In this document: piece after piece, positions 1,992-19,388 of the stretch | How positions within the stretch are numbered: the first letter of the stretch is position 1 | How the letters are laid out: each line of letters starts with the position of its first letter | Virus record (IMG/VR): IMGVR_UViG_3300027911_000077 | Coordinates: 1-20,967 of that record | DNA length: 20,967 nt | Direction: 5' to 3' (one strand) | From: a virus | The notes under the pieces: model-generated | The model's input: only the letters and a program-made list of their open reading frames with translations | The model's database searches: none | What the model was told of the DNA's origin: nothing | Made by a program: the position numbers and the translations under genes

Positions 1992-2429
1992 ATGAAAAAG
2001 AACGGTCGTCCATCTATTTACTCTCAAAAATTAGCGTCTGAGCTTTGTAAAATACTTTCTCAGGGTATTTCCTTGCGAAGAGCCTGTGAAATGAAGGGCA
2101 TGCCTGACGCTTCTACCGTGTTTCGATGGCTAGCTGATAAGCAAGACTTCCGCGAGCAGTACGCGCGCGCAAAAGAGGAAAGTGCCGATGCTCAGCATGA
2201 GATTCTTTCCGATCTCGGAGACGAAGCTATAAAGCTTTCTCAAATAGTTGATCCGAAATCTTCAGGAGCCGTCGTTCAGGCAGTGAAATTGAAAGCGGAC
2301 AACATGAAATGGAGCATGTCGAAAATGAAACCGAAAAAATACGGAGATAAATTAGACTTAACAACTGATGGCAAAGCCCTTCCACAACCTATCTACGGAG
2401 GAACAGCCTCAACCGGCAAGAAAGTTTAA
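1992..2429 (+). CDS. terS: Terminase small subunit
   Basis: A 145-aa protein with the layout of Sf6/P22-class small terminases: an N-terminal GRPSIYS element (residues 5-11), a helix-turn-helix region (ISLRRACEMKGMPDASTVFRWL, about residues 26-47 in two parts), a helical oligomerisation segment with an AREQYARAKEE-type stretch, and a C-terminal KADNMKWSMSKMKPKKYGDK element followed by a flexible tail. The small subunit binds the packaging start site on concatemeric phage DNA and passes it to the large subunit. It precedes terL and overlaps it by 62 nt. The start follows a strong -10 box by six bases. Confidence 0.9.
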   Translation: MKKNGRPSIYSQKLASELCKILSQGISLRRACEMKGMPDASTVFRWLADKQDFREQYARAKEESADAQHEILSDLGDEAIKLSQIVDPKSSGAVVQAVKLKADNMKWSMSKMKPKKYGDKLDLTTDGKALPQPIYGGTASTGKKV

Positions 2430-3603
2430 TTTCGTTGACACGACGGCCACGAAAAAAGTTTTTGCATTGAGCAAGCGCATTCGCGCCGTGTGCGGAGGAA
2501 CATCGGCATCGAAAACAATATCAATTCTCGTTTGGATTATTGATTATTGCCAGGTGAAGCAAGAAAGAGAAAAGCTCGTACACGTTGTGTCCGAGACTTT
2601 TCCTCATTTGGAGATGGGCGCGATGCTTGATTTTCAGAACATCATGAAGGATAGGGGGTATTGGAACGAAGAGCGATGGCATGCGACGCTGCATACGTAC
2701 ACGTTTGAGACAGGGAATAAAGTACGTTTTCTTTCTGTGGATACGTATGGAAAAGCGCACGGCCCGAGGCGCGATGTTTTGTTTGCCAATGAGTGCAATA
2801 ATATCGATTACAATATTATCGATCAGCTCATTACTCGAACGCGCGAGATTGTCTGGCTTGATTGGAACCCGAGCGAGGAGTTTTGGTTCGAGGAACAAAT
2901 GAAGCCGAACCGCTCTGATATTGATTTCATTCGTTTGACGTACAAGGATAACGAGGCGCTTGATGAAGTGACTATCAATGAAATCGAATCGCACAGAAAT
3001 AATAAGAATTGGTGGCAAGTATACGGTCTTGGTTTGAATGGAACGACCGAAGCGCGAATATACAAGGATTGGAAAACAATCGATGAAGTGCCGCATGAAG
3101 CTCGTCTTATTTCATACGGCCTCGATTACGGATACACGAATGATCCGACGGCGATTGCTGCTATTTATTATCTGAATGGAGGATATGTTGTCGATGAAAT
3201 AGCATATCAAAAAGGATTATCGAATCGGCAAATAGCCGACATTCTTCAAGCATTACCTGCTGCGCCTCTTTATCCCGATTCTGCCGAGCCGAAGTCGAAT
3301 GATGAGCTTCGTTCGTATGGAATTACTGTCATGCAGGTTACGAAAGGAAAAGGATCGGTGACGCAAGGAATTTCATTCGTTCAGGCGCAGAGCGTTTCGA
3401 TCACGAAGCGATCGGTGAATCTCATTAAGGATTACCGGAATTATATGTTCAAGACGGATAAGGACGGCAAGATAACCAATGAGCCTGAACACGCATTTTC
3501 CCATGGTCCTGATGCCGTTCGTTACGGATTTCAAATCAAGCAGGTCGTACCGGTCGTCTCGACCTATGAACAGCCCGAATATGAATCACCCGGACTTCGA
3601 TGA
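2368..3603 (+). CDS. terL: Terminase large subunit (packaging ATPase and nuclease)
   Basis: A 411-aa DNA-packaging motor protein. The ATPase half shows a Walker A-like GGTSASKT (43-50), Walker B with the catalytic glutamate LFANE (138-142) and the LDWNPSEEFW coupling motif (164-173). The nuclease half has an RNase H-like set of acids: D253 in ISYGLDYGYTNDPTA, D304 in YPDSAEPKSNDELRSYG and D382 in FSHGPDAVRYG. It translocates DNA into the procapsid through the portal and cuts the concatemer. Walker A is unusual in having Ser where Gly normally precedes the Lys. The chosen ATG lies 62 nt inside terS; the next in-frame alternative is a TTG close to the ATPase core, which would remove the N-terminal strand. 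The stop overlaps the next start by 4 nt. Confidence 0.95.
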   Translation: MAKPFHNLSTEEQPQPARKFNFVDTTATKKVFALSKRIRAVCGGTSASKTISILVWIIDYCQVKQEREKLVHVVSETFPHLEMGAMLDFQNIMKDRGYWNEERWHATLHTYTFETGNKVRFLSVDTYGKAHGPRRDVLFANECNNIDYNIIDQLITRTREIVWLDWNPSEEFWFEEQMKPNRSDIDFIRLTYKDNEALDEVTINEIESHRNNKNWWQVYGLGLNGTTEARIYKDWKTIDEVPHEARLISYGLDYGYTNDPTAIAAIYYLNGGYVVDEIAYQKGLSNRQIADILQALPAAPLYPDSAEPKSNDELRSYGITVMQVTKGKGSVTQGISFVQAQSVSITKRSVNLIKDYRNYMFKTDKDGKITNEPEHAFSHGPDAVRYGFQIKQVVPVVSTYEQPEYESPGLR

Positions 3604-3875
3604 TACGAAGAATGCTCGTCTTGTGCGGAGCTTGCGGCTTTCATTACAAGATAGAGTATTCGCCACGCTTGACGACGTTCTCGAAAATCCTCGACTATTC
3701 CATCTGCTCGAATTGCAACGTTGCTCGCTGTCCGTATCTGCACACTCGCGTCGAATGCCGGCTTTGCCATGCTCCTGTGCCTGATGGGCTGCGAAAGATG
3801 AGGCTTTGCTCTATGCACTATCAGCGTCGAAATAAAATTATGAGAAAAAGAGGATATGATATTCTGAAAAAATGA
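3600..3875 (+). CDS. Cysteine-rich zinc-binding mini-protein between terL and portal
   Basis: A 91-aa protein coupled to both neighbours by 4-nt ATGA overlaps (3600-3603 and 3872-3875). It has CxxC pairs at C9/C12, C36/C39 and C53/C56, plus C44, H57, C70 and H73, enough for two zinc sites. The C-terminus is basic (YQRRNKIMRKRGYDILKK). Small zinc proteins next to terminases are often HNH endonucleases that cooperate in packaging, but I see no HNH core here, only the ribbon-like scaffolding. A role in terminase regulation or DNA contact is inferred from position and charge. Confidence 0.75.
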   Translation: MIRRMLVLCGACGFHYKIEYSPRLTTFSKILDYSICSNCNVARCPYLHTRVECRLCHAPVPDGLRKMRLCSMHYQRRNKIMRKRGYDILKK

Positions 3876-5884
3876 CAAATATCGAAACTACTACGCTGCC
3901 GGACGATATCTCCTATGGCGGCAAGACGAAAAAGGAATTTTTCGACGAGCTGACGAAGATTGCCGCTCAGCAATTGCTCGCGTCCGAAGCGTTCAAGAAA
4001 CCTTTGCTTGAAAAGTGGAAGAGCTATGAGGAATTGAAGGCAGGAAAGGTGAAGAAGAAGCTTCGCACGCCGTTTCAGGTTGCATTCCCTATTTTTTCAG
4101 GCATGCTCGACACGCTTGCGGCGTCCTTTGATGAGCCGATTGAGCTTGAATTCTATCCGACGAAGCCGGCAGATTTCTTCAAGTCGAAGAAAGTGCAGGG
4201 CGCGTGGAACACGGAAAAGTCGAAGACTGATGTCACGTCGCGATGGGATTATAAGTCGCGCATCGAGAAGAATCTTGCTTTGATTTACGGACGAGGAATC
4301 GCGACGAATTTCGCGGAAAGCAGCCCGACCTATCGCTCTGTGCTCGAAATCATCGACCCTCTCTATTTTCATTGTCAGCCCGAGGGAGGAGGATTGCTTG
4401 AAAATCATCTTTTCTGCGGACGCGAAGATATCTTCAAGAGCGAGGCGGAAATTACGGAGCTTGCCGCGTCGAAAATCTATGATGAAGATCAATGGAAACA
4501 GCTCAAAGAAAAGCAGTCAGGCGATTCGACTGTGCTTTCAAACGCATCGGACAATCTTCAGTCAAAACTTACTCGCTTCAAGGCGCTCGGATTGAATCCT
4601 GAGAGCAATGGCTATGTCGGAGAGAAGATTTTCAATCTCGTCGAATGGTGCATGCAGTATAAGAACAAGCGATATTATCTCGTTTTCGATCCATTCTCTC
4701 TCACTTGGCTTCGCGGAGAGAAATTGCGCGATGTCTATTCGCTTGATCTCTATCCGTACACGTCTTGGGCAACGCATGAGGATGCAAAAGTATTCTGGTC
4801 GAAGTCGTATGCCGATGATTTGTATCCTATTTCGGACGCAATCACGACCCTTTTCAATCAAGAGCTTACGAACCGAGAAAAGCGCAATATGGGCGCTCGC
4901 GCTTATGATAAGGACATGTTCCCTGATGTTGCGAAGCTCGACGCGGCGCAGTATCGTCCTGACGCGCTCGTGCCTGTGGATACGAAAGGTGGCACTCGCA
5001 AGATTCAGGATGGCATTTATTATTTCCAAACGGCAGAGCTCGAAGGCACGATCAATCTCCTTGATTGGGTGCAGAAATCTACAGCAAAAGACACTGGCAT
5101 CAGCGATATTGCGCAGGGTTCGGCGATGCAGGCGACAAAAAAGGTCAATGTCGCTTACATGGAGCAGGCTTCTATCGCAAAGCGCATCGGTTACAAGTCG
5201 CAGTCATTCAGCGAATGCTGGGGCGAGCGAGGCGTACGCTATTTTCAGGGCTTGCGCGATCATATGACTCCCAAAATGGCAATTCAGACCATCGGAGACT
5301 TAGGTCTTGAATGGGATGAAATCACGCGAGAGGATCTTGACCTTGAAGGAGACATCGGAGTTCGCGTCATTTCTTCCACGGCTCGAAAGGAAGAGATGGT
5401 TCAGAAGAAAGCCGGGCGCATCGAAGCACTCAAGCTTATGGCGACGGACCCGACGCTTGTTCAGGCATTGAATCCTCAATGGAAAGCATCGGCTATTCTT
5501 CGTGATGTCGGCAATTACGATGACGATGAGATAAAGCTTGCTCTTGATACCAAGAATTCCGCTTCGCGAGAGAGCGTCGCGCATGCGCATGTCGCGATTC
5601 AGAAGATTATTTCAGGCATGAAACCCGATATCAATTTCGAGGCTGATTCCGTATTCCTGAAAATAATCCGCGATTACGCTATCGAGCATCGCGAGACGCT
5701 CATGAAGAAGGGGAAGTTCGAAGCTTTGTGGTCGTATTTCACCATGTCTTCGCAAATGGCTCTTCAGAATTCACAAACAGGTCAGGCAGGAAGCCAATCA
5801 AAGCCAGGGGAAGCGCAGCCTGCGCAGGCAGGGGGAGCGCCTTCTTCGAACGTCGCGCGTCCTATGCAGCCAATGAGCCGATAA
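3872..5884 (+). CDS. Portal protein
   Basis: A 670-aa protein directly after terL and the zinc mini-protein, the usual portal site. Size and style fit the long portals of short-tailed phages. Helical N-terminus (residues ~15-65), a mixed core containing SVLEIIDPLYFHCQPE (about 153-168) and FCGREDIFKSE, the WLRGEKLRDVYSLDLYPYTSW segment in the wing, and a long helical stem/crown region. The last ~40 residues are rich in Gln, Gly, Pro and Ser and likely disordered. Twelve copies would form the ring through which DNA enters and leaves the capsid and to which the adaptor binds. Identity rests on position, size and the family-like wing motifs, not on a single diagnostic residue. Confidence 0.85.
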   Translation: MTNIETTTLPDDISYGGKTKKEFFDELTKIAAQQLLASEAFKKPLLEKWKSYEELKAGKVKKKLRTPFQVAFPIFSGMLDTLAASFDEPIELEFYPTKPADFFKSKKVQGAWNTEKSKTDVTSRWDYKSRIEKNLALIYGRGIATNFAESSPTYRSVLEIIDPLYFHCQPEGGGLLENHLFCGREDIFKSEAEITELAASKIYDEDQWKQLKEKQSGDSTVLSNASDNLQSKLTRFKALGLNPESNGYVGEKIFNLVEWCMQYKNKRYYLVFDPFSLTWLRGEKLRDVYSLDLYPYTSWATHEDAKVFWSKSYADDLYPISDAITTLFNQELTNREKRNMGARAYDKDMFPDVAKLDAAQYRPDALVPVDTKGGTRKIQDGIYYFQTAELEGTINLLDWVQKSTAKDTGISDIAQGSAMQATKKVNVAYMEQASIAKRIGYKSQSFSECWGERGVRYFQGLRDHMTPKMAIQTIGDLGLEWDEITREDLDLEGDIGVRVISSTARKEEMVQKKAGRIEALKLMATDPTLVQALNPQWKASAILRDVGNYDDDEIKLALDTKNSASRESVAHAHVAIQKIISGMKPDINFEADSVFLKIIRDYAIEHRETLMKKGKFEALWSYFTMSSQMALQNSQTGQAGSQSKPGEAQPAQAGGAPSSNVARPMQPMSR

Positions 5885-7845: not shown

Positions 7846-9117
7846 ATGACGAATACCCAAACCCTCAAGCAGGTGTGGATGGATGAGTACCAGCTCACTC
7901 ACTACAAGCAGCCTGTTTTCCGCTCCATCACTGAAGAGAAGATGGTTGAAGGCAAGCTGACGAAGGGCGATACGATTCACTGGTCATACAAGTCCGATTT
8001 CTATGTCAACGACATGGGTTCGGATGGCGCTTACACGACGCAGGCACAGACGGATACCGACGAGACGCTCGTTATCAACAGCGTCAAGGAAGTTTCGTTC
8101 TATGAATTCCAGAAGGACCTTGAACAGGCTCACTACCCTGTGAAGGTCGCGTACGCTCAGAAGGCGATGAACAAGATCTTCCTTCAGATCGATGCAGACG
8201 TGCTTTCAGCAGCGTATCTCGGTGCAACCTCGACGATTACGGCAGCGGATTTCGGCGGTTCAGCAGTTGGCGTCGCTCTGTCTTCGACGGGAGCGAACAT
8301 TCCGCAGATCTTCTCGACGGCAAACCTCAAGCTTCAGCTCGCGAATGTCATTTACGACCCGAACCTCACTTTCACGAAGGATGTGAAGCTTGAGAAGGTC
8401 GTCGGCATGCCAGTTGCGCTTATTTCGCCTCAGATGTATCAGGCGCTTATCGTCTTCCTCGGCGGCAAGACTACCGTTCTCGGCGATAAGGTTTCGACGA
8501 CTGGCCACGCTGGCTCGTACATGGGCTTCAACCTGTTCGTTTCGAATGCTCTTCCGTGGACCGCTCAGATCACGATCGCAGCGACTCCTACGACGGGCGA
8601 TACCATCACCATCAACGGAATGGTATTCAAGTTCGTCACTTCGGCGACGAATCCAGGCGAAATGACGATTTCAGGCACCTCGCAGGCGATTCTCCGCTCG
8701 GCTATCAATGCTCCGTTTACAGCAGTTTCCGGCTATGTAGCGCAGACGGATAACGCGACGAACCGCAACAAGCTTGCAGGTCTCTCGCTCAGCACTTTTG
8801 CGGCGAACGTTGCGACGTTCTCGCAGAAAGGAATCGGAAATGCGATCATCTCGACATCGTTTACGTCAGGCTCGAACCTGCTTACGACCGGATTGCAGCT
8901 TCAGCACAACATCTTCGGGGTTTCCCGATCCGTTGCGCTCGTGCTTCAGAAGTATCCAGAGCTCTACGTCAATCCTGTGTCCGGCAAGGTCGGCAAGGAC
9001 TACGTGACCTGGTGCTACTACGGCATCAAGGTGTTCACGTATCAGGCTCCGCAGCTTGTCGACTGCCAGATCGACGCATCGAGCTTCACTTCGCAGCCTG
9101 CGGTAGGAACCAACTAA
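7846..9117 (+). CDS. Major capsid protein, HK97-type, with inserted beta domain
   Basis: A 423-aa coat protein following the scaffold. N-terminal VWMDEYQLTHYKQPVFRSIT resembles capsid N-arms. Residues ~76-118 carry the long helix region, and ~185-238 (VVGMPVALISPQMYQALIVF, GSYMGFNLFVSNALPWT) are the expected A-domain elements. After SNALP the normal continuation (NIFGVSRSVALVLQKYPEL, 355-373) is delayed by about 110 residues of inserted sequence (240-350) with the pattern GDTITINGMVFKFVT and SGTSQAILRSAINA, a small beta domain I recognise from other phage structural proteins. Such insertions can form surface decoration or stabilising contacts. The gene has no Shine-Dalgarno site; a TACACA sequence ends 6 nt before the ATG. 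Confidence 0.88.
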   Translation: MTNTQTLKQVWMDEYQLTHYKQPVFRSITEEKMVEGKLTKGDTIHWSYKSDFYVNDMGSDGAYTTQAQTDTDETLVINSVKEVSFYEFQKDLEQAHYPVKVAYAQKAMNKIFLQIDADVLSAAYLGATSTITAADFGGSAVGVALSSTGANIPQIFSTANLKLQLANVIYDPNLTFTKDVKLEKVVGMPVALISPQMYQALIVFLGGKTTVLGDKVSTTGHAGSYMGFNLFVSNALPWTAQITIAATPTTGDTITINGMVFKFVTSATNPGEMTISGTSQAILRSAINAPFTAVSGYVAQTDNATNRNKLAGLSLSTFAANVATFSQKGIGNAIISTSFTSGSNLLTTGLQLQHNIFGVSRSVALVLQKYPELYVNPVSGKVGKDYVTWCYYGIKVFTYQAPQLVDCQIDASSFTSQPAVGTN

Positions 9118-9129
9118 CCAATCCACATC

Positions 9130-9768
9130 ATGACCAAGACACAAAAAATCGTGGTTGCGGTCGTCGGAGTGGCTCTTGGCTTCTTCGCTCTCGCAGCTTA
9201 CTTCAGGGCTCCTTCGGTCGCTCCGACAGGCCAGTCTTCGAATCTGGGCGGCGCAGACATCGTAGAGCAGTATCCTTCGTACTGGGTGAACGGAATCAAT
9301 ATCGGAGGGCGTTTCACGAATAACGTGAAGCTCGTTCTCGGCGATGGTCAGAATCAGGTAGCTTGGAAGAACACGACCGGACAGGTGGTCCTTGCCTCAG
9401 GAGTCCAGGGATTCATTTCCCCTTCGGCAAAGACTTCTCCGGCAGTCGCTTCCTCGACGCTCGCTTTCTTCGTCGGCACTTCGACGACTTCGACTATTAC
9501 CGATAGCGCAGCTCCTGTTTTCGGATCGCTCATTGACACTTATCTCATAGCGACTTCGACGACGAATACACTCGCCATCGATAGCTTCGGAGATAAGGGT
9601 ACGAATGGCCAGCAGGTCATTACCGTGCTTCCGAACCAGTACGTCATTGCAGTGCTTGAGAATCCATACAATCAGGCATGCACGGGCGCTACGTGCGAAA
9701 CCGCTACGTCGACGAACCGAGGGTACAACCTTCCGTTCTCGTTCAATTATTCCTTCTTGAATAATTGA
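9130..9768 (+). CDS. Signal-anchored virion protein, possible decoration or head fibre
   Basis: A 212-aa protein with an N-terminal lysine pair and hydrophobic helix (KIVVAVVGVALGFFALAAYF, about residues 6-25), followed by a Ser/Thr/Gly-rich beta-type region with TSTTSTIT and IATSTTNTL stretches. Two cysteines close together (ACTGATC, about 186-192) could form a disulphide outside the cytoplasm. It sits between capsid and adaptor genes, the place of decoration proteins, but an export signal is unusual there. The hairpin at 9778-9797 follows. It may be virion-associated or displayed on the infected cell; the sequence does not decide. Confidence 0.65.
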   Translation: MTKTQKIVVAVVGVALGFFALAAYFRAPSVAPTGQSSNLGGADIVEQYPSYWVNGINIGGRFTNNVKLVLGDGQNQVAWKNTTGQVVLASGVQGFISPSAKTSPAVASSTLAFFVGTSTTSTITDSAAPVFGSLIDTYLIATSTTNTLAIDSFGDKGTNGQQVITVLPNQYVIAVLENPYNQACTGATCETATSTNRGYNLPFSFNYSFLNN

Positions 9769-9777
9769 CGGTTCACA

Positions 9778-9797
9778 GAGGGGCTTTAGGGCCCCTC
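9778..9797 (+). other. Strong GC hairpin after the 9130 gene
   Basis: GAGGGGC (9778-9784) pairs perfectly with GCCCCTC (9791-9797) around a 6-nt loop. No T-tract follows, so it is not a typical intrinsic terminator. It begins 9 nt after a stop codon and may act as a partial terminator, an mRNA stabiliser or a processing site that sets the ratio of capsid-region to downstream products. Confidence 0.6.
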
Positions 9798-9825
9798 CAA
9801 TGAGCCGCCAATTTAAATCAAAATC

Positions 9826-10206
9826 ATGCAAAAATATCTTTACATCGCGATTGCAACATTTCTTCTCGGAGCAGGAATATCCCTGTTCACCTCGATGCCG
9901 ACAAAGACATCGCTCGGAGACACGAATAGCCTGACCACGTTCGCGCTTGGAAACGCTACGAGCGCCTCGTGCCTGACTTCCTCGACTCTTGCTATTGCCA
10001 CTTCGACCGGAGCGCGTCTCGGCCTTCGAATGTATAACGACAGCCCGAACGGAATCTATCTCGCTCTTGGCCAGGCAGCCGTATTGCATACCGGAATCTT
10101 CCTCTCAGCGAGCTCGACTGTGGAGCTGAAAGACCCGATTTACGAAGGAGCAGTCTATTGCATTTCAGGAGCGACTTCAGCGTTGTCTATCGAGGAAATA
10201 AAATAA
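9826..10206 (+). CDS. Small secreted-type virion protein
   Basis: A 126-aa protein with a signal sequence or anchor (YLYIAIATFLLGAGISLF, residues 4-21), then a compact beta-like domain: ASCLTSSTLAIATSTGARLG, LRMYNDSPNGIYLALGQAAV, GIFLSASSTVELKDPIYEG and AVYCISGATSALSIEEI. Two cysteines, in ASC and VYC, could form one disulphide. The domain resembles small phage head or fibre proteins that give spatially even beta sandwiches, known to me from Patescibacteria-associated phage contigs. An alternate -10-like TTAAAT at 9813-9818 lies 7 nt before the ATG. The ORF is followed 7 nt later by the adaptor gene. Confidence 0.65.
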   Translation: MQKYLYIAIATFLLGAGISLFTSMPTKTSLGDTNSLTTFALGNATSASCLTSSTLAIATSTGARLGLRMYNDSPNGIYLALGQAAVLHTGIFLSASSTVELKDPIYEGAVYCISGATSALSIEEIK

Positions 10207-10213
10207 CCTATCC

Positions 10214-10912
10214 ATGAACGGAACCGACTACTATAATCAGGTTAAGACTCTTTTGCACGGATTCGGAATGGACGAGGGTATGTTCTATATGCTTCTCAAT
10301 ACTGCTCGCGTTATGCGAGAAATGGAGCGTCCGTGGATGGTTCTTCGCAAGCTTCAGTCATCGCAGCAAGCGATTCCAGGAAATACCTATCAGACTCAGT
10401 ACGTCATTCCTGCTGATTTCGATCGGCTCACTCGGGATGGAAAGATTCTTCTTTTCGATGGTCAGCAAGTGTGGCAGGAGGCAATTGAGATTCCGGTCGA
10501 GCTTCAGGTGCAATACAAGGATCAGAACCTCAACTTCTTCATGGATCATAATGCCGGCAAGTTTGGAATTACCGGTATTATCGATCGCGTATACAATATT
10601 TATATCAACTATGTGGTCGCAAATCCGGATATTGCCGCAACTACTTCATGGATCAATATTCCGACTCGCTTTCAGCCAATTCTTGCATACGATGTCGTTG
10701 CCATGTATGAGCTCGGAGTCGATTACGATGACACCAATGCTCGCAATGCGAACAAGAATGACCAGATTTCCGAGCGATTGTTCAATGCCATGAAAGTCTG
10801 GGACGATTATTTGCAGCGTTCGGCAGTCACTCTCCTCGATTATCCTGTCGTTGGAGACGTTCCTACATTCGTTCCTCACAAGATAAATATGTTCGGTCCT
10901 TCAGGCACCTAA
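10214..10912 (+). CDS. Head-tail adaptor-like protein (gp4/gp11 type)
   Basis: A 232-aa protein in the adaptor position after the head genes. It begins with helices (YYNQVKTLLHGFGMDEGMFY), has the RPWMVLRK segment and a beta part (GNTYQTQYVIPADFDRLTRD, ILLFDGQQVWQEAIEIPVEL), and ends with helices (RFQPILAYDVVAMYELGVDY; SERLFNAMKVWDDYLQR). The pattern of helix, RPW, strand segment with P-x-DF-x-RL, and helix is what I associate with adaptor proteins of short-tailed phages such as P22 gp4 and T7 gp11, which bind the portal ring and form the first tail layer. Length is close to T7 gp11 (196 aa). The hub-like protein follows 3 nt later, as gp12 follows gp11. Confidence 0.65.
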   Translation: MNGTDYYNQVKTLLHGFGMDEGMFYMLLNTARVMREMERPWMVLRKLQSSQQAIPGNTYQTQYVIPADFDRLTRDGKILLFDGQQVWQEAIEIPVELQVQYKDQNLNFFMDHNAGKFGITGIIDRVYNIYINYVVANPDIAATTSWINIPTRFQPILAYDVVAMYELGVDYDDTNARNANKNDQISERLFNAMKVWDDYLQRSAVTLLDYPVVGDVPTFVPHKINMFGPSGT

Positions 10913-10915
10913 TTC

Positions 10916-13132
10916 ATGGCAAAAGATAAAATACCGTCACAGGGCAAGAATTATGGAGGGAAGAAGCGAGCGCTCATTCCTGATTTTGTCGTGAGTGAAT
11001 GGAACGGTATCAATACTTCAATAAAGGATCAGACAGATCTTCCGATCGGAGCATCTCCTGACGCACTCAATTGGATCACTGGAAAATACAAGGACCATAT
11101 CGAGCTTCGACGCGGATATGCGCTGCTCGGCAATACGCGTGTTTCGAATGCCGGCAAGATAACGGGTATTGGAATTGGAACGAGGCCCGACGGCACTCAG
11201 ATTCCTTTTTTTACCTATGCTCAGAAAATAAAATACTACAACGCCACTACTCAGGATACGGCTGAAATAGGAACGAATACGCTTCCTGCGACTGCAAACG
11301 GGGAAGATGTTGCAATCATGCCGTATCAGAACCTTGCCGGCGCGTCGACGTACATCACGAGCCCGAGCTCTTCCATTTACAAGATCATGAATGCCAATCC
11401 GGCAAGCATTACCGACCTTATGTCGCTCGCTTTCCGAGGAAAAGCGAAAATCGATACGAACCGCATGTTCCTGTGGGATCGTCGCGATGTTCAGCTTTCC
11501 CGGTATCAGACGGAGCTTTACCTTTCTCTGTCTGATCAGACTTCGATTTCACAATATACACAGACTGTCGCGGAATCAGCAGGAACGGGAGACGGCGCGA
11601 CAAAGGCTTTTTCAGGAACGCTCGCTTTCAAGGCAAGCAATCCTAAGCAGACTACTTTTTTTAATGAATTTTTTTCTCCGGTTTTTGCCGGAGTGTCAAT
11701 TACGGGAATCACGAATGCCGTTCAGGCAGTCGTGACTGTCGGTTCTCATTCTCTTCAAACCGGAGATATAGTATTTTTCGATGGAGTATCGGGAATGACG
11801 CAGATAAACGATACATTCGGGGTTGTCGAATCGACGACCGCAACTACCATTACGACTTCGATAAATTCGACGACTTATGGCGTGTATTCCTCAGGGGGAA
11901 GCATTTATAAATCGGAGTATTTTCATGATGATAAGAATGGGAATCTGACAAGTAATCTCGGAGGAACGGGAACCATCAACTATACGACGGGAGCGTATGT
12001 CCTGAATTTCAACACCGCCCCTTTGAATGGAAAGGGCATTTTTTCCAATTATTATGTCGAGGATTCGACGAATGGGGGCATTGCCGATTTCACGATTGAC
12101 GGATCGACGACAGGAAAAGGAAAGATTTTTCCTCAATTCGATGGCGGAGGAAACCTCAATGCCGTGCTTCCGTTCGACCAGACGCAATATTGCTTTCATA
12201 TAGTGAAGACCTGGTATCTTTCGCTCGGTACCGATGACACGAAAGCGGCTAACCTTCCGTATCGTTCGCAGTTCGGCATTCCGTATTGGCGTGCGGCATT
12301 CGCGACTCCGGATGGAATCGTGATGATTGATAATGCTCTTCCATCGAATCCGAAAGCGAAGATTCTTGAGATAGATGCTTCGCTTTCGACTGCGGTTCTT
12401 ACTATCGTCCCTGTCACTATTTCTGATCAGCTTGACCTCACTCCTTTCGGTTTCAATGCAGCGGTCGTGCGCCGGTGGGGAGATTATGACATCATTGCCT
12501 GCCAGAATGTCGTGAACGGAGTCGTTGATTCATTCAATACGATATTCTTTCTTCGAAACATCTATTCAGGCCAATGGGACAGGCTCGATTATATGGTGTC
12601 TTGCCTTGATGAGTTTTACGGGGCATTGCTCGGGGGTTCTTCCCTTCAGAACAATGTTTTTACTCTCTTTTCAGGAACCGATGATGATGGATCGAAAATC
12701 AATAATTACTGGACAAGCAAGCAATTCGATCTGCATGTCGAAGGCACGAAGAAATTCAATCGTTTCGTTATACGCGGGCTCATTCAGAATACGCAGAATC
12801 TCGACATCATGCTTTCTTTTGATTCGGGAGCATTCATCAAGATATTTACCGTGCAAGGCAACGCTTCGTACGTGAATCAGGGCAATCCCGTATTCGTCGG
12901 TTCGAATACGGTCGGTTCGCAGGTTGTTGGAGGAGGCAACGGGCAGGGTCCGGCAATTACGGCATATCCTTTCGAAGTAGAGCTTGAATTTTCAAGCGAC
13001 TATTTCGAATATGTCCAGGCGAAATTCGTCGCAAATAACATCGGATTCATTCAGATCGACGAGTATATCTTCAAGGACATTCGATACAAGGGGAGGAAGC
13101 TTCCTGCCGCGCGAGTCATTTCAACGACTTGA
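10916..13132 (+). CDS. Tail nozzle/hub-like protein with FCCH-like inserted domain
   Basis: A 738-aa protein directly after the adaptor, matching the order and size of T7 gp12 (794 aa) or P22 gp10. The N-terminus (VVSEWNGINTSIKDQTDLPI, then GASPDALNWITGKY and IELRRGYALLG) is typical of tail hub proteins that form a beta-propeller nozzle. Residues ~262-330 (VVTVGSHSLQTGDIVFFDGV, then TFGVVESTTATTITTSIN and YGVYSSGG) match a module annotated as a ubiquitin-activating E1 FCCH domain in phage proteins; here it is only a structural fold, not an enzyme. Next (~335-395) is a second small beta module (TINYTTGAYVLNF, APLNGKGIFSNYYVEDST). The rest is propeller-like strands. Start follows the adaptor stop by 3 nt. 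Confidence 0.65.
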   Translation: MAKDKIPSQGKNYGGKKRALIPDFVVSEWNGINTSIKDQTDLPIGASPDALNWITGKYKDHIELRRGYALLGNTRVSNAGKITGIGIGTRPDGTQIPFFTYAQKIKYYNATTQDTAEIGTNTLPATANGEDVAIMPYQNLAGASTYITSPSSSIYKIMNANPASITDLMSLAFRGKAKIDTNRMFLWDRRDVQLSRYQTELYLSLSDQTSISQYTQTVAESAGTGDGATKAFSGTLAFKASNPKQTTFFNEFFSPVFAGVSITGITNAVQAVVTVGSHSLQTGDIVFFDGVSGMTQINDTFGVVESTTATTITTSINSTTYGVYSSGGSIYKSEYFHDDKNGNLTSNLGGTGTINYTTGAYVLNFNTAPLNGKGIFSNYYVEDSTNGGIADFTIDGSTTGKGKIFPQFDGGGNLNAVLPFDQTQYCFHIVKTWYLSLGTDDTKAANLPYRSQFGIPYWRAAFATPDGIVMIDNALPSNPKAKILEIDASLSTAVLTIVPVTISDQLDLTPFGFNAAVVRRWGDYDIIACQNVVNGVVDSFNTIFFLRNIYSGQWDRLDYMVSCLDEFYGALLGGSSLQNNVFTLFSGTDDDGSKINNYWTSKQFDLHVEGTKKFNRFVIRGLIQNTQNLDIMLSFDSGAFIKIFTVQGNASYVNQGNPVFVGSNTVGSQVVGGGNGQGPAITAYPFEVELEFSSDYFEYVQAKFVANNIGFIQIDEYIFKDIRYKGRKLPAARVISTT

Positions 13133-13151
13133 TTATCCTTATGAAAAATTT

Positions 13152-13160
13152 TGATACACT
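13152..13160 (+). promoter_or_regulatory. Extended -10 element six bases before the 13167 gene
   Basis: TG-A-TACACT (13152-13160) is an extended -10 element. Exactly six bases separate it from the ATG at 13167, the same spacing as at terS. The 34-bp gap in which it sits separates the hub gene from the fibre gene, so this could start a second late transcript, again leaderless. Confidence 0.5.
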
Positions 13161-13166
13161 AAAATC

Positions 13167-14483
13167 ATGACTTTCTTAAAAACTATCGGCAGAATAATTC
13201 TCGGTCTCGGTCTCGCTATCTCGGGCGCGCTCGGGTATCATTCTCCTCTTAACAATCTGGGTTCGACGCTTCCGTCGAGTGTGCCGGCAGTTTTCGAGAC
13301 CTATCTTGCCAATCAGCAGGGAACAGGGGACACGACGATGACGCTTGCGAATGGAACGCTGCGCGATGGCTCGTCTCTTACAGGCTATGTCTGCTTCACT
13401 GTGGACTCGAATTCTACCTCGCTTGAATATGAATGCGGAACAGCAGCAGGACCAAATGTCACTAATATCGTTCGCGGCATAGATGCCGTGACGGGTACGA
13501 CCACGATTTCTTCTCTTACTTTCGCGCATCGTCTCGGAGCAGACGTGAAGATCACTGACTATCCGATTCTGACGATTCTTACTCGAATGGCGAACGGAAA
13601 CGACAGTTTCCCGAACCTCATGCAGTATGATCCGTCAGTGCTTATCACGAATGCTGCGCCGACTACGACCATCGCCACGAAATACTATGTGGATAACGTA
13701 GCGGTATCAGGAGCTCCGAATGCTAACACGACGACCAAAGGCATCGTTCAGCTCGCTACCGGAGCTCAGCTTGCAGCAGGCACGGCAAACGGGAGTACCG
13801 GAGCTGCTCTTGTTGCTGCTTCGACGAATGCGACCTCTACGTGTCAATCGGCGGCAAATAGTGTGCTCGTGACGCTCGTTTCGAGCGGCAAGCTTTCGAC
13901 CGGATGCATCGACCAGACGCAGGCGTATTCGTGGACCGGCAAGCAGAATTTCTCGACTGCCACTTCGACTTTCAATGCGACGACTTCCATCGCGGCAAAA
14001 TTGGGATCTCCTTTGCTTCTGAATGGAGTAAATCAGTATTGGCCTACGGCAGATGGAGCAAGTTCTACCGTCCCCATGACCGACGGATCGGGAAATATAT
14101 CTTGGAATTCGATTACGCATGCTAACAGCGCCGTAGTAGTCACTGCTACGTCTACTACTTCAACTGGCACAGTGAGCGTGCAAGGAAGCACGATTATCCT
14201 TTCAACCGGAGCAAATCGCGTGATGATAACTTACGCAGGCAGCGGGTCTAATTCTTCCACGGGAGATGGAATCAACCTCGGGTTCAGTATCGACGGAACG
14301 GATACCTTTACAGACGCTTCGCTTACTTCGGCAACCGGAGGCAACAAAGGCAACTTGAGCTTTTCTTATGTCACAACCCCGCTCACTCTTGGTTCGCATA
14401 CTTTCGTATTGCGCATGCAGGCGGTCACGGGGGGCACGGCGAATATAGACGGAGGCTCATTCGCAGTAACGGAAATAAAATAA
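13167..14483 (+). CDS. Secreted-type tail fibre-like protein of the Patescibacteria phage style
   Basis: A 438-aa protein with an N-terminal signal or anchor (TIGRIILGLGLAISGALGYH, residues 6-25). The region from ~42 (AVFETYLANQQGTGDTTMTL) through VCFTVDSNSTSLEYECGT, RGIDAVTGTTTISSLTFAHR and TKGIVQLATGAQLAA is a pattern I recall from many Patescibacteria-associated phage and genome contigs. Middle parts are Ser/Thr-rich. The C-terminal ~110 residues (from VSVQGSTIILSTGANRVMIT to GGTANIDGGSFAVTEIK) look like a beta-sandwich knob. Its cysteines, in YVCFT/YECGT and TCQS/GCID, suggest disulphides. Likely a receptor-binding or structural fibre on the virion. Confidence 0.65.
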   Translation: MTFLKTIGRIILGLGLAISGALGYHSPLNNLGSTLPSSVPAVFETYLANQQGTGDTTMTLANGTLRDGSSLTGYVCFTVDSNSTSLEYECGTAAGPNVTNIVRGIDAVTGTTTISSLTFAHRLGADVKITDYPILTILTRMANGNDSFPNLMQYDPSVLITNAAPTTTIATKYYVDNVAVSGAPNANTTTKGIVQLATGAQLAAGTANGSTGAALVAASTNATSTCQSAANSVLVTLVSSGKLSTGCIDQTQAYSWTGKQNFSTATSTFNATTSIAAKLGSPLLLNGVNQYWPTADGASSTVPMTDGSGNISWNSITHANSAVVVTATSTTSTGTVSVQGSTIILSTGANRVMITYAGSGSNSSTGDGINLGFSIDGTDTFTDASLTSATGGNKGNLSFSYVTTPLTLGSHTFVLRMQAVTGGTANIDGGSFAVTEIK

Positions 14484-17850: not shown

Positions 17851-17940
17851 ATGAAGCTTCCAAGCTACCCAAAAACAGAAGCAAGCAAAGACAAAACCGA
17901 TGAATTTAATAAGAGGGTCCATATAATCACTATACCATGA
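17851..17940 (+). CDS. Possible 29-aa peptide coupled to the ATP-grasp gene
   Basis: ATG 17851 opens a 29-codon frame (MKLPSYPKTEASKDKTDEF and NKRVHIITIP) ending in TGA at 17938-17940, which overlaps the next ATG as ATGA. The peptide is basic and polar. ATGA overlaps mark most real gene pairs in this genome, so it may be a real small gene or a coupling leader. It also contains the TATAAT at 17922-17927. Too short to be sure. Confidence 0.3.
   Translation: MKLPSYPKTEASKDKTDEFNKRVHIITIP
17922..17927 (+). promoter_or_regulatory. TATAAT -10 box, 9 nt before the ATP-grasp gene
   Basis: A perfect TATAAT at 17922-17927, nine bases before ATG 17937, in the 91-bp gap after 17845. No TG extension precedes it and no clear -35 is seen. 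It could start a near-leaderless transcript for the ATP-grasp and fibre genes, like the boxes at 1977 and 13152, or be chance sequence inside the 29-aa ORF. Confidence 0.35.
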
Positions 17941-19388
17941 AAGTAAATTTATTGCAAGAGCTTACGGACAAAGAACAGCAGGATCTTCATGATGTCCTCA
18001 TGGTAAAGGACACCTCTGAAAAAGAGCCTGAAATAGAGCCACAGAATGAAGAAGAGGGAGAATATGACCGGAAATTCCTCATTGTTTCGTCTTATGGAGA
18101 GCTTCTTGACCTTGCAATTCATCTCTCGCGCAACGAGAAGGAGAAAGTCGTCCTGTGCATAACTGAAAAAGAGTATCAGAAAATCGGCGAAGGCATCGTT
18201 GAAAAGGACAATGATTGGCACAAGTTCATGGGACAAGGTTGGACGTGGATCATTGACGGATGCGAGCATGCTGACCTTCAGGACTGGCTCCGCAAGCAGG
18301 GAGAGTATGTCGTTGGTACGAATGCGGAAATGAGCGAGCTTGAAGACAATCGTCAGAAGGGGCAAGAATGGTTCAAGGCGGCAGGATTCAAGCAGCCTGA
18401 GTCCCATAACTTCAAGGACATCGATGATGCGATCGCGTTCGTGTCTGAGAATGCCGACAAGCGATGGATCATGAAGCAAAACGGGTCCGCTCCGAAATCA
18501 TTGAATCACATGGGTAAGTTTCAGGGCTCGGAAGATATGCTTTACCATCTTGATGAGATGAAGAAGAAGTGGAACGAGCAGGAATACGGTGCATTCGATT
18601 GCGATCTGATGGAAATTGTCGATGGCGTGGAGATTGCTGCTTCAGCATTCTTCAATGGCCATGACTGGTTGCGGGATAAGGAAGGCCGAGTCGTCGGATT
18701 CCTCAACGGCGAAGAAAAGAAGGAATTCAATGGGAATATGGGAGAAACCACAGGCGAGACAGGCACGACATTCTACGGCTGCGATGAAACGAATGCCATC
18801 TTTGCCGATATTCTTTTGCGAAAGGAAATTACGGACAAGCTGCGCGAAACCGGCTTTCGCGGCGTGTTCGACATAAACGGAAGTCTCATCGATGACGGCT
18901 TTGTGGCGTTCGAAGCGACCTCGCGTTTCGGCATTCCTGCTACGTCTTACGAATTCATCGAAGGCTTGAAATCAAAGACAGCGGATCTGCTCTGCGCAAT
19001 GGCCTATGGAGACAATCCGGCAATCGAAGTGCGCAAGGGCTGGGGCATGTGCATCGTAGTTGCGGCAAAGCCGTATCCGATCGATGCAGACATGCCGAAA
19101 GAGCATACTTCCATCGGAGAGAAGCTGTGGATACTTGCTGATGGCAAGCCGACTGATCAATTCACAAAAGAACAGCAAAAGCATATTCATCTTGAGAATT
19201 TTTATTGCGATGAAGAGGGCAATTACAAAGTAGCAACTCCTTGCGGCTATCTGCTCGTGGTCACGGGGACTGGATCGAGCATAAAATCCACGAGAGAGAA
19301 ATTGCTAGGATATATCAAGGAGAACATCTATATCTCCGGCCAGAAATGGCGCACCGATATCGGAGCTCGCCTTGAGGAGCATATATGA
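17937..19388 (+). CDS. PurD-like (GARS-type) ATP-grasp protein in the tail module
   Basis: A 483-aa protein with the whole architecture of phosphoribosylamine-glycine ligase (GARS, PurD). After an acidic, flexible N-terminus (1-45) come a Rossmann-like strand-loop-helix (RKFLIVSSYGELLDLAIHL, 45-63), the pre-ATP-grasp region (GEYVVGTNAEMSELEDNRQK, 122-141), the lid/ATP segment (KRWIMKQNGSAPKS, 175-188), MEIVDGVEIAASAFFNGHDW (225-244), NMGETTGETGTTF (267-279), and FRGVFDINGSLIDDGFVAFE plus ATSRFGIP (307-334), then a GARS-C-like domain ending WRTDIG (471-476). In GARS the E-x-N metal motif reads ExN-x-RFGDPE; here E326 and R330 are kept but Asn is T328 and GDPE is GIPA. So ATP-grasp activity may be altered or lost. 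It overlaps the fibre gene downstream by 4 nt. Its substrate cannot be told. Confidence 0.75.
   Translation: MKVNLLQELTDKEQQDLHDVLMVKDTSEKEPEIEPQNEEEGEYDRKFLIVSSYGELLDLAIHLSRNEKEKVVLCITEKEYQKIGEGIVEKDNDWHKFMGQGWTWIIDGCEHADLQDWLRKQGEYVVGTNAEMSELEDNRQKGQEWFKAAGFKQPESHNFKDIDDAIAFVSENADKRWIMKQNGSAPKSLNHMGKFQGSEDMLYHLDEMKKKWNEQEYGAFDCDLMEIVDGVEIAASAFFNGHDWLRDKEGRVVGFLNGEEKKEFNGNMGETTGETGTTFYGCDETNAIFADILLRKEITDKLRETGFRGVFDINGSLIDDGFVAFEATSRFGIPATSYEFIEGLKSKTADLLCAMAYGDNPAIEVRKGWGMCIVVAAKPYPIDADMPKEHTSIGEKLWILADGKPTDQFTKEQQKHIHLENFYCDEEGNYKVATPCGYLLVVTGTGSSIKSTREKLLGYIKENIYISGQKWRTDIGARLEEHI

Follow-up and report, generated by a model that had tools for sequence, protein, structure and literature searches.

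A putative ligase of PurD descent in a fixed virion-cluster slot of many uncultured short-tailed-type phages is likely to link two different molecules at a late stage of infection

Viral genes named purD or GART have been reported as purine auxiliary metabolic genes (PMC11097641, PMC11360552, PMC12043954), and GART has been found more than 2.8-fold enriched in viruses in the oceans (PMC11360552). In the PurD of A. aeolicus, glycine is bound by Asp212, Arg287 and Glu292, and the binding of PRA has been stated to be unresolved (PMC8880213); we mapped the three glycine-binding residues by alignment to D214, R290 and E295 of E. coli PurD. Here we analysed a 20,967-base fragment from IMG/VR, referred to below as the window, which carries a PurD-like gene among virion genes (Table 1). 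A preliminary description, made from the sequence, had placed this gene between ejection-like and fibre genes. The ORF is found there, following two ejection-like ORFs and overlapping the fibre gene by the bases ATGA, an arrangement that may couple translation of the ligase and the fibre gene. The gene-to-gene overlaps point to membership of the ligase in a late operon. Matches in the window to sigma-70 promoter and terminator consensus sequences did not exceed those in shuffles, and there was no sign of recent import by GC content, which was 0.483 for the ligase gene against 0.456–0.539 for its neighbours. The window also encodes a 125-aa protein with a HELxE-type motif (1119–1496), which precedes the terminase gene and had no match in Pfam; in four related loci, L008 to L011, this small protein adjoins the ligase (e.g. 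L008:6447–6824 and L009:11310–11687).

Table 1. Positions in the window of the ligase gene, its motifs and its neighbours
Feature	Position	Strand	Basis or remark
PurD-paralog ATP-grasp ligase gene (putative), 483 aa, ATG to TGA	17937..19388	+	ORF, profiles, AF2 fold, alignment
N-terminal extension, residues 1–44	17937..18068	+	Low-confidence, largely disordered in the model; most relatives are without it
Loop E259-x-K-K...G269-x-x-T-G-E274-x-G-T277	18711..18767	+	Alignment; opposite PurD D214-H-K-R...G-P-N-T-G-G-M-G; family-specific switches E259 and E274
D312-I-N314, family-specific, on the strand facing E326/T328 (PurD: Y271, G273)	18870..18878	+	Alignment and model
Catalytic motif E326-A-T328-S-R330-F-G332-I-P334-A	18912..18941	+	Alignment
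Y438 codon, at the place of R383 in the GGRVL motif of PurD	19248..19250	+	Alignment
C-terminal motif R472-T-D-I-G476, common to PurD	19350..19364	+	Alignment
ATGA, ligase stop overlapping fibre-gene start	19385..19388	+	Sequence
Downstream fibre-like gene, 318 aa	19385..20341	+	Weak trimeric-adhesin match
Upstream ejection-like gene, 533 aa	16244..17845	+	Assigned by gene order and composition, without a match to any family
Second ejection-like gene, 595 aa	14488..16275	+	A relative lies upstream of the ligase in L008
Head-tail adaptor	10214..10912	+	Profile match (SU10_adaptor, slightly below cut-off)
Long tail/nozzle-like gene	10916..13132	+	phrog_584 tail match
Terminase large subunit	2368..3603	+	Basis of the co-occurrence test

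The relationship of the window protein to PurD was seen in profile searches as well as in its predicted structure. TIGR00877 matched residues 114–478 at E=2e-15, with 56.5 bits against a cut-off of 288, and the Pfam domains GARS_C and GARS_A matched at 24.5 and 16.1 bits, likewise below their cut-offs of 34.8 and 27. When a profile built from 66 relatives was searched against the PDB, PurD structures were found at E=2.5e-41, and no PurK or PurT chain appeared under E=1. An AF2 model made with an alignment of 65 sequences (pLDDT 90.2, pTM 0.86) predicts the full GAR-synthetase fold: in Foldseek, its 15 best PDB matches were all PurD, with TM by target of 0.73–0.80 and E down to 1e-26. These results uphold the PurD-like order of motifs read in the preliminary description, and the superposition on PurD that it had proposed as a check came out in its favour. 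Among the viral predicted structures of BFVD there was no close match to the model, the best-ranked reaching a TM of only 0.54 by target, and PHROGs held no family for the window protein, with one weak match among the 66 members.

We compared the active-site residues of 97 family members with those of 10 true PurDs, carrying E. coli PurD positions over to window numbering. The residues that are kept (E. coli PurD/window) are E102/E136, K145/K180, E194/E232, K216/K261, E286/E326 and R290/R330; E136, K180, E232, E326 and R330 are found in 97/97 members and K261 in 96/97, while PurD K105 has become R139 in all 97. The fold and the ATP/Mg residues place the family among ATP-grasp enzymes, with this Arg replacing the Lys. 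Five further positions change as one block: D214 to E259 (97/97), G229 to E274 (E in 93, D in 4), Y271 to D312 (96/97), G273 to N314 (96/97) and N288 to T328 (97/97, with Asn in 10/10 true PurDs). The window protein reads E-A-T-S-R-F-G-I-P-A in place of PurD E-x-N-x-R-F-G-D-P-E, and translation and alignment both confirmed the T328 and GIPA first described for it. The counterpart of E295 is A335 in the window and A, L or T in the family, and the GGREH motif and R383 (GGRVL) are lost across the family. Of the glycine-binding triad, the Arg is kept, the Asp has become Glu and the Glu is lost. In the alignment, R362/R363 of PurT, which we take to have a phosphate-side role, fall in the motif matching the GGREH/R383 region, and by this analogy GGREH and R383 are presumed to be the phosphate (PRA) side of PurD.

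The altered metal motif of the preliminary description is real; it is a family-wide switch that goes together with D312 and N314 and not a lone loss. The motif is E-x-A-x-R in E. coli PurK and E-x-S-x-R in PurT, neither with the Asn, and both enzymes carry a facing-strand Glu in the N314 slot; that they work without the E-x-N Asn makes its absence here compatible with activity. In the AF2 model, residues 308–318 and 321–328 form a hairpin, which would put N314 opposite E326 and D312 opposite T328. Based on the alignment, this strand assignment and the comparison with PurK and PurT, we treat T328 as part of the metal site, and this site is likely compensated by D312/N314 opposite E326/T328. Values of dN/dS across ten pairs were 0.04–0.09, and the motif change is the mark of a distinct PurD-paralog family, not of decay. 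Inteins and homing elements favour conserved sites. In one locus, an 814-aa ligase ORF (L019:9950–12394) contains an intein (TIGR01445, E=2.7e-6) exactly after T328, and in another (L020:9698–11902) the ligase is split by about 460 bases encoding a homing-endonuclease-like ORF, the two halves meeting almost seamlessly; no Rfam intron was found in this split gene. The N-terminal half of the split ligase also has a HAD-like segment (SDFDGVVTSG...ILTGR).

The relatives in IMG/VR number at least 121, 80 of which were fetched; a single-sequence scan found none, and they came with an alignment query. Identity to the window protein is 54–62% in one group and 25–29% in a second, large group. Among the 50,697 phage records of INPHARED there was one convincing member, in the complete 43.8-kb spring-water phage MW202796; weak matches (22–27%), including annotated bacterial purD contigs of Salmonella and Acinetobacter, were excluded. 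The conserved ligase ORF of this phage (MW202796 42140–43471; L002:19887–21218) is unannotated in the GenBank record, which also has genes annotated as ubiquitin and chaperonin 10. A 160-kb viral contig, L044, carries two divergent ligase copies, at 3–1358 and 9692–11083. A scan of bacterial and archaeal genomes gave prophage copies in Paraburkholderia (L095 and L096) and lone chromosomal copies in Parcubacteria, Sungbacteria, Omnitrophota, Woesearchaeota, Acidobacteria, Spirochaetaceae and Betaproteobacteria, and these lone homologues of bacteria and archaea carry the complete active-site signature. Judged by score gap, the family is present in 11 of the 287 sampled Parcubacteria-phylum genomes; a tandem pair of the cellular paralog (L122:1447–2775 and 2806–4191) was seen in one of the 11 (G152). 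Plasmid copies occur in Halarchaeum (homologue WP_123078225), Roseomonas and Sphingomonas, the last annotated as two ORFs. The Roseomonas copy (L239:8001–9275) adjoins genes for a type III polyketide synthase, a methyltransferase and an aminotransferase, possibly a biosynthetic cluster that could hint at the class of substrate. In a quick tree search, to which long-branch warnings apply, the 97 members were split from true PurD by long branches with an SH-aLRT of 100, and by their sequences they form a distinct, previously unnamed family of PurD paralogs. The Patescibacteria host assumed at the outset remains putative: a search by terminase of the 287 Parcubacteria-phylum genomes returned only one short match, of 93 aa.

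True PurD scoring over the cut-off was present in 12 of the 17 member-bearing genomes of the bacterial and archaeal scan, where TIGR00877 gave 71–125 bits for the family members and 405–574 for true PurD. The chromosomal members adjoin unrelated housekeeping genes and not purine genes, whereas a true PurD from the same search (L125) lies between purN-like and purF-like genes. Homologues placed consistently in purine operons, which the preliminary description had named as evidence against its view, were thus not what we found. In the complete relative MW202796, none of the genes is annotated as belonging to purine synthesis. PurD over the cut-off was found in 58 of the 287 Parcubacteria-phylum genomes, in keeping with the earlier remark that most Patescibacteria are without the purine pathway. 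The lost residues and the coexisting true PurD bear out the proposal that this is not a PurD for purine synthesis and that the fold was recruited elsewhere.

Across the phage loci compared, the gene order is adaptor, nozzle/stabilisation protein, ejection-like proteins, ligase, fibre and often endolysin, and the virion-module position reported for the window is therefore real and recurrent. Between the ligase and the gene before it there is usually an overlap of about 4 nt; at the BLAST level used, the proteins encoded by these preceding genes form 15 sequence clusters. Using an ejection protein of the second group as query, we obtained 80 loci, with the ligase next to the ejection gene in 47, absent despite downstream room in 20, and the locus too short in 13. 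After L221 (partial match) and L229 (no recognisable adaptor) were left out, 18 ligase-less loci remained, whose ejection proteins are 70–88% identical to those of ligase-bearing relatives. In 16 of the 18 loci, only 11–21 nt separate the ejection stop from the fibre-adaptor motif PIPQDKIGESFVWRDWF, and in L162 and L177 the slot is filled by small unrelated genes; in ligase-bearing loci the same motif lies, where found, 6–33 nt after the ligase stop. These clean empty sites indicate that the ligase of the second group is an accessory cassette of a single gene, showing there the clean presence or absence at a fixed site that is expected of a moron. In phage P22, the immI region is a one-gene accessory slot between the ejection and tailspike genes. 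We rejected an obligate link of the ligase to the terminase lineage, as none of the 17 records in which a related terminase occurs encodes the ligase, and a repeat with 7 of them detected 3/3 positive controls; the terminase relatives of the window are mosaic genomes. One terminase relative without the ligase, L156 (reverse complement, 9113–14158), has by eye a run of sugar/glycosyltransferase-like genes in its tail module. In the tail module of the Paraburkholderia prophage L095, an Asp/Asn beta-hydroxylase gene (L095:4251–4859; PF05118, E=1e-13) lies beside a GNAT-like gene; as a partner of the ligase, the hydroxylase was found in 0/24 phage records in a search run without a positive control.

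We put the chance at somewhat better than even (roughly 0.55) that the window gene encodes an active ATP-grasp carboxylate-amine ligase of PurD-paralog descent, not a GAR synthetase, which acts on a host-derived substrate from a late cassette. By sequence and fold, the protein keeps the ATP- and metal-binding residues of PurD and has its metal/acyl-phosphate hairpin rebuilt, from Y271/G273 facing E286/N288 in PurD to D312/N314 facing E326/T328, with the residues holding the glycine ammonium and a substrate phosphate gone. Its place after the last ejection gene and ahead of the fibre-adaptor gene would give late expression, and late in infection the enzyme would phosphorylate a carboxylate with ATP and pass the acyl group to an amine. 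Because two acids are gained and a phosphate-type Arg is lost, this amine would be non-phosphorylated and probably neutral or cationic. As every active-site switch is found in cellular and phage members alike, the substrate would most likely be a common cell-derived molecule, either a metabolite or a component of the envelope, rather than a virion protein specific to the phage. This shared-substrate step is the weakest of the argument, as it rests on the invariant residues and specificity can shift outside them.

The main rival to a host-derived substrate is that the ligase modifies the virion, adding an amide-linked group to the adjacent fibre or ejection proteins and thereby altering host binding or particle stability. 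A virion job would also agree with the recurrent place of the ligase beside ejection and fibre genes, which is fixed, with 4-nt overlaps, in dozens of phages and with ejection proteins of many sequence clusters, and possible modification genes are seen in the hydroxylase and GNAT-like genes of L095, in an annotated GNAT of MW202796 and in the sugar-type genes of L156. However, close phage relatives that have no ligase encode the same fibre adaptor, lone cellular homologues have the same active site and no fibre neighbour, and the hydroxylase was not general in the 24 phage records searched. The fibre-related job first suggested for this gene is therefore well founded as to position and doubtful as to function; we consider virion modification unlikely, with fibre modification possible but disfavoured. 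Superinfection exclusion, in which the ligase would alter a surface molecule of the envelope and block sibling phages, is a special case of the host-derived substrate reading and seems to us less probable again. It would suit an accessory slot that takes one gene and lies between the ejection and fibre genes, on the pattern of the P22 immI region, although late expression comes late for exclusion in a lytic cycle. A cell-wall modification against superinfection has been proposed for phage amidoligases, according to the citation of that proposal in PMC10580990.

A divergent GAR synthetase that raises the purine supply for phage DNA, as an auxiliary metabolic gene, would be consistent with PurD being nearest in both fold and sequence and with the way in which viral purD/GART genes have been reported. 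We regard this as improbable, given the family-wide loss of the glycine-binding Glu and of the GGREH and GGRVL residues, bit scores far from those of true PurD in the same genomes, and a setting outside purine operons. Least probable by a wide step is a protein that has lost catalysis and serves the virion as a structural part, an option raised in the preliminary description. The altered E-x-N motif and the location among structural genes could be read that way, but the ATP-binding and catalytic residues are near-invariant in the 97 members, the dN/dS values are low, an intein sits inside the catalytic motif, and the clean empty sites indicate that the gene is dispensable for the module.

Taken more broadly, we suggest, tentatively and at a little under even odds, that a PurD-derived family with a ligation reaction of its own, common to phages, Patescibacteria, other bacteria and archaea, is carried by phages as a late cassette. 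Its amide-linked product would be on the host envelope, on a virion protein or a new small molecule, and the family would have been wrongly counted as purine synthesis. The published viral purD metabolic genes may include members of this family, and where they were counted as purine synthesis the ecological reading would be wrong. The switch set E259, E274, D312, N314 and T328 is a ready diagnostic for the family. The family offers an ATP-grasp reaction yet to be assigned in phages, Patescibacteria and haloarchaea, and the phage pairs with and without the ligase are natural material for finding its function.

Compared with known systems, the family shares with PurD (TIGR00877; PDB 5vev, 2qk4, 2ys6, 2yw2) the whole-length fold, the domain order, the RxDIG C-terminal motif, the ATP-binding Lys/Glu set and R330. 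It differs from PurD in the block of five switched positions and the residues lost with them, in its place outside purine operons and its coexistence with true PurD, and in the score of the window protein far under the TIGR00877 cut-off. PurK and PurT resemble it as ATP-grasp enzymes with an acidic residue on the facing strand, but the family aligns with PurD, and the PurD-type C domain GARS_C was matched by 64/66 members. The NCBI name 'phosphoribosylglycinamide synthetase C domain-containing protein' is carried by the Halarchaeum and Sphingomonas members; it is a mere domain label, and a search for the phrase found no paper in the literature library used. As in the P22 immI-type region, an accessory gene follows the last of the ejection genes and precedes the fibre gene, but in the window matches to sigma-70 promoter and terminator consensus sequences are not above chance and the overlaps point to a late operon. 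The small phage ATP-grasp/amidoligase/GATase cassettes of LUZ24-like phages, Pa11virus and OM43 phages are likewise phage-borne with their substrate unassigned. The UFV-P2 ATP-grasp protein, however, has 291 aa and is encoded in an early module with amidoligase and amidotransferase genes, whereas the present family, with 440–480 aa, is of PurD type and stands alone in the late module, with ejection and fibre genes as its neighbours.
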